Shown: positions 2,610-8,534 of the stretch, piece by piece
Layout of the letters: the number at the start of each line of letters is the position of its first letter
Numbering within the stretch: position 1 is the stretch's first letter
Source of the DNA: Rhodovastum atsumiense
GTDB taxonomy: Bacteria; Pseudomonadota; Alphaproteobacteria; Acetobacterales; Acetobacteraceae
Length of the DNA: 38,568 nucleotides
Direction: 5' to 3'
Assembly: GCA_026225115.1 (NCBI GenBank)
Contig: JAMFSE010000108.1
Span: forward strand, 1-38,568
The notes under the pieces: model-generated
Databases searched by the model: none
What the model saw: the letters and a program-made list of their open reading frames with translations, nothing else
Told to the model about the DNA's origin: nothing
Position numbers and translations under genes: made by a program

Positions 2610-2695
2610 GGAAGGGTGCCCGAGTGGCTAAAGGGGGCGGACTGTAAATCCGCTGGCGTACGCCTACGTTGGTTCGAATCCAACCCCTTCCACCA
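2610..2695 (+). tRNA. tRNA-Tyr (anticodon GTA)
   Basis: An 86-nt tRNA with encoded CCA. The acceptor stem GGAAGGG/CCCTTCC is perfect. The anticodon loop CTGTAAA sits on the stem GGA/TCC. A long variable arm (CTGGCGTACGCCTAC) marks a class II tRNA, as expected for Tyr. The T-arm is GTTGG-TTCGAAT-CCAAC. Palindrome A begins inside the 3' CCA. Confidence 0.97.
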
Positions 2696-2837
2696 ACACC
2701 GGTTCAAAATGCACTCTGACGCGGCATCTGACGCGCATCTCCTGCGCTCCGGTGCTCACGGCCAGTAGGCCGCTCCGCTCCGGTGCTCGGATCTGCACGC
2801 CAGCTGCCCCGCCAGAGCCCATTTTGAACCGGTGTTG
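2694..2837 (-). repeat. Palindromic element A (Family 1), minus-strand orientation
   Basis: Outer arms are a perfect 18-bp inverted repeat (2694-2711 and 2820-2837) that continues imperfectly inward to about 49 bp per arm. The centre, 2742-2788, is the 47-nt core shared with elements B and C, here on the minus strand: GAGCACCGGAGCGGAGCG, a short stem CGGCC/GGCCG around TACT, then GAGCACCGGAGCGCAG. Of nine differences between the arms, four are transitions and all four become G-U pairs in minus-strand RNA; none do in plus-strand RNA. It abuts the tRNA-Tyr 3' end. Its function is unknown to me. Confidence 0.8.
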
Positions 2838-2942
2838 AATCGGCTCATCAACGGCGGGGTTTACTCATCTTGGCCTCTTGCCCTAGAGGTTTTTCAGAAT
2901 TCGGTATGGTGAGTCGAATAGGCCGCCAGAGCGAATTCTGAC

Positions 2943-3016
2943 GCGGGTGTAGCTCAACGGTAGAGTCCTAGCCTTCCAAGCTAGTTGTGCGGGTTCGATT
3001 CCCGTCACCCGCTCCA
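2943..3016 (+). tRNA. tRNA-Gly (anticodon TCC)
   Basis: A 74-nt tRNA with encoded CCA. Acceptor stem GCGGGTG/CACCCGC with discriminator T. The D-arm contains AGCTCAACGGTAGAG, the anticodon loop CTTCCAA reads TCC, and the T-arm is GCGGG-TTCGATT-CCCGT. A tuf gene often follows this tRNA in other proteobacteria; here palindrome B follows instead. Confidence 0.97.
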
Positions 3017-3030
3017 GTTTCCATTGCTCG

Positions 3031-3176
3031 GCCAGCCTGCTTGGAAATTCGCTCCGGTGGCCAAGCTGGGGCGTGTTTTGAGAACCGGCGCGCAGCGTAC
3101 GTAAGTACGTGAGCACCGGAAGCGCAAAAACGCGCCTCAGATTGGTCGCCGGAGTAGAATTACCAAGTAGGCTGGC
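3031..3176 (+). repeat. Palindromic element B (Family 1), between tRNA-Gly and tRNA-Trp
   Basis: Arms of about 50 nt start GCCAGCCTGCTTGG and end CCAAGTAGGCTGGC. The 47-nt core is at 3080-3126, with apical stem CGTAC/GTACG around GTAA and the motif GAGCACCGG downstream of it. Five of the mismatches between the arms are G-U compatible on the plus strand and none on the minus strand. The arms share no sequence with those of A or C. The element fills the gap where many relatives carry tuf. Confidence 0.8.
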
Positions 3177-3239
3177 AACCGCCGTACTTGACACGAACCC
3201 CCGTAAAGTGTGGAACGCCGCCTTGCGCTGGTTCGGACT

Positions 3240-3316
3240 AGGGGCGTAGCTCAATTGGCTAGAGCGCCGGTCTCCAAAACCGGAGGTTGAGAGTTCGAGA
3301 CCCTCCGCCCCTGCCA
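3240..3316 (+). tRNA. tRNA-Trp (anticodon CCA)
   Basis: A 77-nt tRNA with encoded CCA. Acceptor stem AGGGGCG/CGCCCCT with discriminator G. Anticodon stem CCGGT/ACCGG carries loop CTCCAAA, giving CCA. The T-arm is GAGAG-TTCGAGA-CCCTC. It precedes secE, the usual arrangement, and may be co-transcribed with it. Confidence 0.97.
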
Positions 3317-3412
3317 TCCTCCGGCGCATCGCGCGAAGGCGCGTAAGGGTTAACGTTAAAAATTTGAGTTTATTAAGTCGTGACTAGAAATGATTAGCGG
3401 AGTTCAGTTGGC

Positions 3413-3607
3413 GTGGCGCTAAAAGCGGTACAATTTTTCCGGGATGTCCGGACCGAGGCGAAGAAAACGACCTGGCCGTCGCGCAAGGAAACCTTGCAGA
3501 CAACCGGAATCGTGCTCGCCATGGTGGTGATCACAGCCATTTTCTTTCTGACTGTTGATCAGATTATCGGGGCCGGTATGCGGGCTCTTTTCGGCGTCGG
3601 CAGTTGA
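3413..3607 (+). CDS. secE: Preprotein translocase subunit SecE
   Basis: SecE is the small essential clamp subunit of the SecYEG channel in the inner membrane. This 64-residue protein is the short single-span form. An amphipathic N-terminal segment with the family signature (FFRDVRTEAKKTTWPSRKET, about residues 8-27) is followed by one membrane helix (about 30-52, GIVLAMVVITAIFFLTVDQI). The GTG start at 3413 is chosen because GGAG lies ten bases upstream and the protein then begins MALKAVQFF. nusG follows after 12 nt, so the pair is an operon. It is preceded by tRNA-Trp. Confidence 0.96.
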   Translation: MALKAVQFFRDVRTEAKKTTWPSRKETLQTTGIVLAMVVITAIFFLTVDQIIGAGMRALFGVGS

Positions 3608-3619
3608 GGTTTTATTAGA

Positions 3620-4150
3620 ATGGCCAAGCGTTGGTACGTATTGCATGTGTATTCCGGGTTCGAGAAAAAAATCGCCACCCAGATTCTCGAACAGGCGCAG
3701 CTGAAAGGCCTCGCCGACCAGATCGATGAAGTCGTGGTCCCCACCGAGGAAGTGGTCGAGATCCGCCGCGCCCAGAAAGTCAACGCCGAGCGCAAATTCT
3801 TCCCCGGCTACGTGCTGATCAAAATGGAACTGACCGACGACGCCTGGCATCTGGTCAAGGACGTGCCGAAAGTCACCGGCTTCCTGGGCACCAAAACCCG
3901 CCCCACCCCGATCTCGGATGCCGAAGCCGACCGCATCATCAAGCAGGCCCAGGAAGGTACCGAAAACCGCCGCCCCTCGATCATCTTCGAAATCGGCGAA
4001 CAGGTCCGCGTCGCCGACGGACCTTTTACAAGTTTCAATGGGGTCGTGGAAGAAGTCGACGAAGACAAGGGCCGCGTCAAAGTCTCGGTCTCCATCTTCG
4101 GCCGCTCCACCCCCGTCGACCTCGAATACGGCCAGGTCGAAAAGGTCTAA
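3620..4150 (+). CDS. nusG: Transcription termination/antitermination factor NusG
   Basis: A 176-residue NusG of normal length. The N-terminal NGN domain (about 1-115) binds the clamp helices of RNA polymerase and begins KRWYVLHVYSGFEKKIA. It also carries the segment FFPGYVLIKM and the VTGFLG motif. The C-terminal KOW domain (about 122-176, EIGEQVRVADGPFTSFNGVV) contacts Rho or ribosomal protein S10. It regulates elongation, Rho-dependent termination and transcription-translation coupling. The operon with secE is canonical. The next gene is not rplK: the ribosomal protein operon that nearly always follows in proteobacteria is missing, and palindrome C lies 23 nt after the stop. Confidence 0.97.
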   Translation: MAKRWYVLHVYSGFEKKIATQILEQAQLKGLADQIDEVVVPTEEVVEIRRAQKVNAERKFFPGYVLIKMELTDDAWHLVKDVPKVTGFLGTKTRPTPISDAEADRIIKQAQEGTENRRPSIIFEIGEQVRVADGPFTSFNGVVEEVDEDKGRVKVSVSIFGRSTPVDLEYGQVEKV

Positions 4151-4173
4151 CTTCTTAAAAAGACGCGGCTTTT

Positions 4174-4294
4174 CAGAAGTCGCTCGGGTGAGTCGCATGA
4201 CGGTGATTTTCGAGCACCGGAGTGGAGCGTACATAGATACGCGAGCACCGGAGCGCAGAAAATCGCCGTCAGGCGGCCACCCGAGCGACTTCTG
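4174..4294 (+). repeat. Palindromic element C (Family 1), after nusG
   Basis: Arms begin CAGAAGTCGCTCGGGTG and end CACCCGAGCGACTTCTG (17 bp perfect), extending to about 38 nt per arm. The 47-nt core at 4212-4258 has GAGCACCGGAGTGGAGCG, apical stem GCGTA/TACGC, then GAGCACCGGAGCGCAG. Two further arm differences are both G-U compatible on the plus strand. A separate small dyad (ATGCTGCCGCGCAGCAT) follows at about 4311. It could terminate secE-nusG, but there is no T-run. Confidence 0.8.
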
Positions 4295-7026: not shown

Positions 7027-7177
7027 CAAGACGCGTCAAAAATGGCTGACAACGAACATAGTCGCCGCGGTTCGCTCGCAATGACCTAAGCTTATCAGGC
7101 CAGATTTCACACCGTCTTCACCGGTTTCGTGTAACAACGCTTCCGTTGTGACGAAAAATTTGTCAAAAACCTTAATC

Positions 7178-7612
7178 ATGCACCTTCACGCTTCTTGTGC
7201 TGCGCGCCGAGGCCCGGATGGCGACGAGGCCATTCTGTTGGTAGGCCCCCCAGGCGCCGGAAAGTCCGATCTGTTGCTGCGGCTGGTCCATGCCGGATGG
7301 GCGCTGGTCGCCGATGACCAGGTTGTCATTGAAGACAATATCGCCGCTGCGCCGGCAGCCCTTGCCGGCATCATCGAAGTTCGGGGGCTGGGTCTTTTCA
7401 AACTACCTTATCTTAACGCCGCACCCCTCCGGCTGGTGATTCGCCTCGGCGTGCAGCCCGTGCGTCTGCCGGAACCCGAACGTGATCCTGCGCTAAATCT
7501 ACCTGTGGTCACCATCGATGCCGCCGTTGCCTCGGCGGTGGAGCGGGTGACAATCGCCCTGGATGCCGCCTGCGGCCGGATCGCTCAAATCGCCGGTGCC
7601 TTCGTTGAATGA
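7178..7612 (+). CDS. hprK: Short alphaproteobacterial HPr kinase/phosphorylase
   Basis: HprK phosphorylates and dephosphorylates HPr on its regulatory serine. Firmicute HprK is about 310 residues; this 144-residue protein is the catalytic domain only, the form usual in alphaproteobacteria. It begins MHLHASCAA, then Walker A GPPGAGKS (residues 23-30), DDQV (about 46-49) and the HprK signature region GIIEVRGLGLFKLPYL (about 72-87). I chose the ATG at 7178 over a GTG at 7148: family members start at this point, and the GTG lies partly in a small dyad (7134-7149, ACAACG-CTTC-CGTTGT). rapZ follows after 10 nt, then EIIA, HPr and enzyme I, so its substrate is encoded in the same run of genes. The target serine is present in that HPr (Ser51). 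Confidence 0.88.
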   Translation: MHLHASCAARRGPDGDEAILLVGPPGAGKSDLLLRLVHAGWALVADDQVVIEDNIAAAPAALAGIIEVRGLGLFKLPYLNAAPLRLVIRLGVQPVRLPEPERDPALNLPVVTIDAAVASAVERVTIALDAACGRIAQIAGAFVE

Positions 7613-7622
7613 CCTGCCACGC

Positions 7623-8534
7623 ATGAATGCGCCGGAACGGCATCTGCGGATTGTCTTAGTCACCGGGCTTTCCGGCGCCGGTAAAAATTCCATTCTGCGG
7701 GCGCTCGAAGACCTTGGCTTCGAGACCATGGATAACCCGCCGTTAAATTCGCTCGAGGAGTTGGTCGACCGCGGCGAACGCAACCTCGCCATCGGCGTCG
7801 ATGCACGCTCCCGCGGCTTTAACTCCGATACCGTCATCGCCACCATCGAACGGCTGAAACTGAACCCGGAACTGCGGCCGGAACTGGTCTACGCCTTTGC
7901 CGAGGATGAGTTTCTGCTCCGCCGCTATACCGAAAACAGGCGCCGGCACCCGCTAGCCCAAACCGGCCAGGTCGTGGAGGGCATCGCCCTTGAACGCCTG
8001 CTCACCGAAGGGCTGAGGCGCGCCGCCGATCTGCTGATCGACACCTCAACCCTGCCGCTCTCGTCGCTGCGCCGGATGATCGAGCAGCGCTATGGCGCCG
8101 AGTCCCCCGGCATGGCGATTTCCCTGGTGTCTTTCGCGTATCCCGCCGGTCTGCCGCGCGAGGCGGATATCGTGCTCGACGCCCGGTTTTTACGCAATCC
8201 GCATTACGAGCCCATGCTGAAACCGCTGACCGGCCTTGAACCCCGGGTAGGTGCGTTCATCGAGGCCGACCCTAATTATGCCCCGTTTTTTGCCCATATA
8301 AGGGGCATGGTCGATTTCCTCTTGCCCCGCTTCGTGCAAGAAGGCAAGAAATATGCAACAATTGCGATTGGATGTACCGGCGGCCAACATCGATCTGTAT
8401 TTTTGATCGAACGGCTGGCAGCACATTTGAGACAGTCCGGCTGGCGGGTGGGTATTACCCATCGCGAGCAGGAGAATACAAGCGCGGCGGGTGACGGAGT
8501 TCGGACCAAAACAATGAGCAGCGCGACGAAATGA
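7623..8534 (+). CDS. rapZ: RapZ-family RNase adaptor / P-loop nucleotide-binding protein
   Basis: A 303-residue RapZ (YvcJ/YhbJ) protein. In E. coli RapZ binds small RNAs and directs RNase E, tuning glucosamine-6-phosphate synthase; in alphaproteobacteria its role is less clear, but it is regularly found with hprK and PTS genes. The N-terminal P-loop is GLSGAGKN at residues 15-22: the Ser/Thr that normally follows the Walker lysine is Asn, with Ser next to it. ALEDLGFETMDNPP (about 27-40) is the usual second motif. The C-terminal domain has the conserved IAIGCTGGQHRSVFLIE (about 255-271). The ATG at 7623 gives the normal family N-terminus and clears the end of hprK; an upstream in-frame ATG at 7563 would overlap hprK. 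Confidence 0.92.
   Translation: MNAPERHLRIVLVTGLSGAGKNSILRALEDLGFETMDNPPLNSLEELVDRGERNLAIGVDARSRGFNSDTVIATIERLKLNPELRPELVYAFAEDEFLLRRYTENRRRHPLAQTGQVVEGIALERLLTEGLRRAADLLIDTSTLPLSSLRRMIEQRYGAESPGMAISLVSFAYPAGLPREADIVLDARFLRNPHYEPMLKPLTGLEPRVGAFIEADPNYAPFFAHIRGMVDFLLPRFVQEGKKYATIAIGCTGGQHRSVFLIERLAAHLRQSGWRVGITHREQENTSAAGDGVRTKTMSSATK

Follow-up and report, generated by a model that had tools for sequence, protein, structure and literature searches.

The stretch of DNA analysed here, which we call the window, comprises 38,568 nucleotides from Rhodovastum atsumiense (Acetobacteraceae) and is contig 11 (C11) of a 3.67-Mb genome in 149 contigs. Near its left end it carries a tRNA-Tyr gene (2610..2695, plus strand), tRNA genes for Gly and Trp, and a gene at 3620..4150 (plus strand) that we take to be nusG, on recognition of its open reading frame (ORF) and with conserved flanks. 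Between and behind these genes lie three long hairpins, designated e1, e2 and e3, which are the subject of this report. They had been singled out in an earlier, sequence-only reading as elements with a common core and unrelated arms, possibly selected as RNA structures in one orientation.

Hairpins behind the tRNA genes and nusG

Folding with RNAfold bears out all three hairpins at the positions originally assigned to them. Element e1 (2694..2837, core on the minus strand; covariance model match C11:2702-2829) has its base against the 3′ end of tRNA-Tyr. Element e2 (3031..3176, plus strand; C11:3040-3167) occupies the spacer between tRNA-Gly and tRNA-Trp and is a divergent member of what we call subfamily B, and e3 (4174..4294, plus strand; C11:4171-4297) is an ordinary member of subfamily A, about 20–23 nt past the nusG stop codon. 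A fourth, short copy at approximately 2892..2943 (plus strand), between tRNA-Tyr and tRNA-Gly, had been overlooked; it consists of outer arms only, lacks the core, has arm sequence in common with subfamily A, and is matched weakly by the model (E 0.036).

The cores, at 2747..2788 (minus strand) in e1, 3080..3121 (plus) in e2 and 4212..4253 (plus) in e3, align without gaps, as had been reported. Their length from first to second motif is 42 nt, the 47 nt given previously taking in flanking bases, and e2 has one additional base immediately past its second motif. The motif itself, GAGCACCGGAG, had been described as present twice in every element, which is exact for e1 and e3 only; the two motifs of e2 are degenerate, reading GAGAACCGGCG (two differences) and GAGCACCGGAA (one difference). 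The apical stems (CGGCC/GGCCG in e1) do vary in sequence among the three elements while remaining paired. On the core strand the predicted fold energies are −110, −103 and −86 kcal/mol for e1, e2 and e3, compared with −84, −82 and −77 kcal/mol on the opposite strand. The earlier count of eleven transition-type arm mismatches (four in e1, five in e2 and two in e3), all compatible with G-U on the core strand, is exact, and none of them is A-C on that strand.

Two further features of the neighbourhood were seen in related genomes. A short motif, TTGCGCCAA (TTGAGCCAA in G013), is conserved beside the e1 hairpin in four species, to the left of the e1 orthologue (loci L114, L116, L118 and L128), where the rest of the spacer mostly aligns poorly. 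In G015, where e2 would be expected from our genome, the tRNA-Gly/tRNA-Trp spacer (L118, approximately 1894-2100) instead holds a long palindrome of other sequence, GTCATTGCGAGCGCAGC... with its complement, apparently from another repeat family.

One dispersed family with conserved pairing

Seven copies in the R. atsumiense genome fit a strict core pattern. With a covariance model built from eight copies (e1–e3 and five others), searching the same genome at E≤1 returned 61 matches, which resolve into 43 distinct full-length places, the coreless copy at 2892-2943 and one fragment at a contig end, the other 16 being opposite-strand repeats. Model-matched lengths range from 95 to 172 nt, and nearly all 43 copies form the long fold-back when folded, L024 being clearly decayed. 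Compared with the other 42 copies, each of the six arms of e1–e3 reaches a best score above all of 200 shuffles, with best identities, for e1, e2 and e3 respectively, of 30/36, 36/42 and 43/48 in the left arm and 32/41, 41/49 and 36/41 in the right; for e2, copy L133 matches at 36/42 and 41/49. The idea of unrelated arms is therefore rejected. The arms are homologous sequence common to the whole family, which has at least two arm subfamilies (A and B), and the proposal that they are copied independently of the core is not supported. Although they have diverged, e1, e2 and e3 belong to a single palindromic family dispersed through the genome, and adjacent copies, three in this case, can seem unrelated even so. 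The former impression was reasonable, since e1 and e3 compared directly are indistinguishable from shuffles (the left-arm score is reached by 178 of 500, the right-arm score by 53 of 500). The observation behind the sequence-only reading is real, but its scale was undersold and its headline of unrelated arms is wrong: arms conserved across one family, which it had named as grounds for abandoning that part of its case, are what was found.

Structural variants occur within the family. Short coreless copies of about 50–60 nt, with outer arms only, stand beside full copies in the window (2892-2943) and at L188, L195 and L189 near position 1500, and look as if the inner hairpin had been deleted. 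Two copies in our genome (L018, 1501-1672, and L134, 1501-1669) are enlarged apically by a GC-rich inner hairpin of some 45 nt, and a further class of about 142 nt has an additional inner stem.

The search of host and relatives that had been suggested extends the family well beyond one genome. At E≤0.01, 19 of 31 genomes of the genus, our own included, have at least one model match. The strict 47-base pattern, run against a named genome collection, recovered 14 stretches in Lichenicoccus, Acidocella, other metagenome-assembled genomes (MAGs) of Acetobacteraceae or Rhodospirillales, Devosia, Asticcacaulis and one unclassified MAG. Matches by blastn were obtained in 26 plasmid records, 25 of them alphaproteobacterial and one from Legionella adelaidensis. 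For carriage by phages, one query against 50,697 phage records gave no match; five stretches in viral contigs did match. The Legionella plasmid copy (L228) is well folded and lies outside the Alphaproteobacteria, for which horizontal transfer or sequence contamination are possible explanations. A wider model, built from 20 diverse copies, matched at least 17 of 241 genomes of the class at E≤1e-6, our own included; this is a lower bound, as up to 17 candidates per genome were scored, and the matches were checked in part. In the genomes of six loci from Devosia, Asticcacaulis and Lichenicoccus it gave 49, 42, 36, 7, 6 and 3 matches. The family is widespread in the Alphaproteobacteria, across several orders, and probably ancient. 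In Rfam, no family besides tRNA reaches its gathering score; with the cut-off relaxed to E≤5, the one overlap with e3 comes from a plant microRNA family that scores far short of its gathering threshold. Open-access papers, searched by string and keyword, yielded no description of the core, its strings turning up only in papers unrelated by title.

Double changes that preserve pairing are seen at 20/51 pairs in the first eight-copy alignment, at 20/31 pairs among 20 diverse copies and at 18/58 pairs among five e1 orthologues, each structure being predicted from its own alignment. On these predicted structures, selection on structure is supported. Among the e1 orthologues, species differ even in the outermost stem, the part that extends to the end of the tRNA, and its pairing is mostly kept; the copy in G009 folds less well (−64 kcal/mol). 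In the same orthologues, G-U fills 36 and A-C two of 290 cells.

The one-sided wobble noted in the window holds across the genus. In a symmetric self-alignment of each copy, which favours neither strand, 86 genus copies have 364 G-U and 44 A-C mismatches on the core strand; an initial global alignment (rare A-C and G-U states, 69:56) was set aside since it mispaired the inner arms. The bias follows the orientation of the core and not that of the neighbouring gene, with G-U:A-C at 205:26 in 50 copies antisense to that gene and 32:5 in seven sense copies (p=0.78). For analysis by frequency four e1 orthologues were left out, leaving 82 copies. Here, common states (more than five copies) include G-U in 11 of 39 pair columns and A-C in none, whereas G-U:A-C among rare states is 6:16 for singletons (p=0.05) and 28:28 for states of up to two copies; in an earlier version that included all 86 copies, the ratios were 48:44 (rare states) and 326:0 (common states). 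A mutation bias from transcription or replication is not supported as the source of the G-U excess, because the bias is equal in both gene orientations and there is no excess in states of one or two copies. We interpret the frequency pattern as the work of a filter that acts while copies propagate or as time passes, resident copies at first decaying with neither strand preferred.

Outside the genus the asymmetry is weaker: G-U:A-C is 106:60 in 43 diverse copies (L235, L253 and L256 having been dropped as unclear, and L102 and L249 as weak) and 45:28 in 20 Devosia copies. Many copies outside the Acetobacteraceae have a conserved non-Watson-Crick internal loop, CGAAAATG against CATTTGCAG. The core strand is the more stable one in 83/86 genus copies with RNA energies and 84/86 with DNA energies, in 41/43 diverse copies, and, for the Asticcacaulis and Devosia sets, in 19/20 copies of one and 20/20 of the other (L329, for which localisation failed, is still counted within n=20 in the Asticcacaulis/Devosia comparison). 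This lead probably comes in part from the conserved core itself.

Position, orientation and ends

Copies of the family often sit at the 3′ ends of genes, in a preferred orientation. The right end lies −9 to +12 nt from the 3′ end of an opposite-strand gene or tRNA in 54 of the 86 genus copies, while 11 are reversed, with the left end at the 3′ end of a same-strand gene, and four do both (p=4e-9 for the orientation preference); in our genome alone, 29 right-end antisense contacts stand against two left-end ones. Of the 54, six have a tRNA as their neighbour, five of these at the orthologous tRNA-Tyr site, and 48 abut a protein gene, compared with 9.4 expected over 81 usable loci when all intergenic positions within 600 nt are considered for protein genes only. 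Distances of the right end to the antisense gene are tightly grouped, 53 of 64 falling between −8 and +8. Most copies that abut a gene have their core strand antisense to it, which leaves no obvious transcript to read that strand. At 30 translated loci the genes ahead of the element look ordinary, and include those we take to be yajC, dut, ftsH, acnA and acpP. In two copies from G013 (L144 and L152), the last codons and stop of the neighbouring gene apparently lie inside the terminal repeat of the element.

Beyond the genus, of 46 diverse loci, some with uncertain stem ends, 24 have the element at an antisense stop and eight at a sense stop within 7 nt, four showing both. Annotated plasmid records, for example from Allorhizobium, Bosea and Shinella, fit the stop-codon rule; the element stands behind a sense-strand stop in Phyllobacterium (L225) and Sphingobium (L232), and between annotated divergent genes in another Phyllobacterium record (L224). 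Among 20 Asticcacaulis copies, the right end fits in ten and the left in one, the same copy showing both. In Devosia indica (L098), an element at 7107-7310 abuts the 3′ end of an opposite-strand tRNA, as e1 does, and a second element lies at 7534-7656.

The sites themselves are mostly species-specific and polymorphic between species. When the flanks of all 86 copies were compared over 1.3 kb, only the tRNA-Tyr site, found in five species, was clearly common across species in the same orientation; several other locus pairs have one-flank similarity only. The e1 site is occupied in 4 of 18 relatives with a readable spacer, and no model match was found at the e2 site in 17 relatives or at the e3 site in 18. 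At L041 (G022) and L171 (G012), both flanks are alike and the element is in opposite orientation, which suggests independent insertions or inversion at one site. An empty site is seen between acpP and fabF: acpP of G022 ends in ...GAATAA with the element directly after the TAA, and its sister G019 (flanks 92–96% identical) and 12 other relatives examined lack the element and have a spacer of 17–39 nt instead.

Part of the family has the terminal sequence GAGRCTGTTT...AAACAGYCTC in common. These ends recur in Acidocella-type genomes, Asticcacaulis, Mesorhizobium and one Devosia copy, and recognisable GAG/CTC ends are present in 29 of the 86 genus copies. Nine of the 29 are flanked by exact 3-bp duplications, all of them TNA, compared with a mean of 2.4 and a maximum of 8 in 2000 shuffles. 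TNA targets combined with GAG ends are characteristic of the IS1031 group within the IS5 family of insertion sequences (IS), to which the ends and the nine duplications would conform. A parent IS was looked for through DDE_Tnp_1 in seven genomes and DUF4096 in our own, and no IS1031-type IS was found at those loci. Mobilisation by a REP-associated tyrosine transposase (RAYT; REP, repetitive extragenic palindromic sequence) is rejected for the genus, the REP transposase domain PF01797 being absent from eight copy-bearing genomes; among 14 genus genomes it occurs in one, G021, itself without copies.

Nature of the element and comparison with known repeats

The explanation that we find best supported, and consider probable, is that e1–e3 are copies of an ancient, non-coding, dispersed palindromic element resembling a miniature inverted-repeat transposable element (MITE), targeted to or tolerated at the 3′ ends of genes. 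Under this explanation, the element would be copied in trans by an enzyme onto TNA-type targets, often stop codons. What is filtered as copies propagate would be the folded strand in core sense, which runs antisense to the gene ahead of it. Decay would follow for most resident copies, while a few, e1 at tRNA-Tyr among them, would be retained where they are, the hairpin probably having become useful at that 3′ end.

Several results weigh against this explanation. The acpP site lacks a duplication and its old spacer is not cleanly recovered; many copies are without recognisable ends; of the 29 that have them, 20 show no TNA duplication, and in the Asticcacaulis/Mesorhizobium set it is present in 2/9, which is not significant. 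No exact GAGRCTGTTTSA end was found at 19 PF01609 loci from seven genomes or at one PF13340 locus in our own, where scattered single matches with one or two mismatches were seen (other transposase families were not searched), and PF01797 was found in 0/8 searched genomes that carry copies. The frequency result depends on the threshold, as states of up to five copies stand at 51:34 (p=0.08) or, once columns with a common G-U state are taken out, at 44:22 (p=0.009). In the arms of 20 Asticcacaulis copies the G-U excess is reversed, at 26:47, a conserved internal loop (CGAAAA.. against ..TTTGCAG) supplying part of the A-C count. As for position, right and left ends meet a gene end within 9 nt in three copies each of the 20 from Devosia, where called stem ends often run into the gene; gene calls outside annotated records come from a crude ORF caller; and e2 and e3 themselves do not abut a gene end, their hairpin bases being about 14 and 23 nt away.

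Of the other explanations, the one we consider most seriously, although it is doubtful, is that these are repeats of the CIR type (Caulobacter CcrM-associated intergenic repeats), with a GANTC methylation site in one arm and a role in cell-cycle DNA methylation. GAGTC is indeed found in the left arm of 72/86 genus copies and 36/43 copies of our own genome, and CIRs are strictly intergenic according to an excerpt of PMC10969869. However, GANTC is present in the left arm of only 8/43 diverse copies, 4/20 copies from Asticcacaulis (a member of the Caulobacteraceae) and 11/20 from Devosia, which weakens a general CcrM role, and the left arms of e1 and e2 lack GAGTC. Rather unlikely is an element of the REP or terminator kind that ends or stabilises transcripts and owes its place to selection and not to an insertion mechanism. 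This would fit the tight coincidence with stop codons and tRNA ends, the ordinary genes in front of the element among the translated loci and the retention of e1 in place; yet selection alone would allow gaps of tens of nucleotides, in contrast to the narrow −8 to +8 range, the non-core strand, corresponding to the mRNA in antisense copies, folds less stably in 83/86, and the preferred orientation is left unexplained.

The sequence-only reading had favoured selection for RNA structure, on which view the core strand would yield a folded RNA that serves the cell and is present in many copies because it is useful at many loci. Its structural half stands, in that double changes keep pairs, and covariation, the preference of G-U over A-C on the core strand in the genus, and the conservation of e1 in five species, with its double changes and near absence of A-C, all speak for this view. 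Its functional half we regard as improbable: most abutting copies have the core strand antisense to their gene, sites are mostly not common between species, mismatches of one or two copies have no G-U excess, the excess is reversed in Asticcacaulis arms, and there is no Rfam match. Least probable among the alternatives is a folded single-strand recombination site like the attC of integrons, where the gene-antisense strand folds as recombinase substrate. The structured strand antisense to the gene, the site abutting the stop codon, the variable sequence with structure kept and the lead of the core strand by DNA energies as well would all be in keeping with it, but no GTTRRRY/RYYYAAC ends are visible by eye in the consensus and printed ends, and the 3-bp duplications that some members of the family show point to another chemistry.

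A bolder reading can be formulated, which we think unlikely to hold: an ancient, Alphaproteobacteria-wide mobile element whose folded single strand, preferably antisense to the host gene, would be the substrate for mobilisation. The element would be delivered precisely to where genes end, at stop codons and at the CCA of tRNAs, by a logic like that of attC but with no integron involved, and G-U-tolerant pairing would be kept on one strand only. Should the orientation preference and the rule on stop codons prove true, the family would be addressed with unusual precision to gene 3′ ends across several orders. It would also provide a natural test of how the termination of translation, the decay of mRNA and the maturation of tRNA respond to hairpins directly behind stop codons. 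The same material would show whether folded-strand selection acts during propagation or in place, two cases that the frequency spectrum of G-U versus A-C mismatches can separate.

Among known repeats, CIR1/2 of Caulobacter crescentus were reportedly described by Chen and Shapiro in 2003 as inverted repeats of more than 100 bp, in up to about 20 copies, with a CcrM site (GANTC) in one arm. They are alphaproteobacterial and intergenic like the present element, which abuts stop codons in a preferred orientation, features that the excerpt of PMC10969869 does not state for CIR. The GANTC in one arm matches Acidocella-type copies, whereas most other tested lineages of the present element do not keep it. 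Set against CIRs by description only, the family may be akin to them. The attC site of integrons is an imperfect palindrome behind a stop codon with a structured antisense strand; no attC boxes are seen by eye in the present element. REPs are often found at gene 3′ ends. REP and the related bacterial interspersed mosaic elements (BIME), and REPINs with RAYT, are extragenic palindromes as here. REPs, though, are 20–40 bp long and GTAG- or CGTC-tagged, as the relevant part of PMC3733652 has it, while our elements are far longer and the eight searched copy-bearing genomes lack Y1_Tnp. Likened again by description only, Bru-RS of Brucella (palindromic, 103–105 bp and intergenic in the part of PMC2267715 concerned) and RIME of Rhizobium (intergenic by the title of a paper cited in PMC2873474) are alphaproteobacterial repeats like this one. 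Bacterial MITEs, in the account excerpted from PMC10969869, are likewise short, non-coding, intergenic and present in many copies with terminal inverted repeats, and 3-bp duplications occur in part of our family. In contrast to MITEs, it folds back over nearly its whole length, has a conserved 42-nt core and a preferred orientation behind stop codons, and at the loci examined no parent transposase was found. By analogy, the element would appear to work like a MITE.

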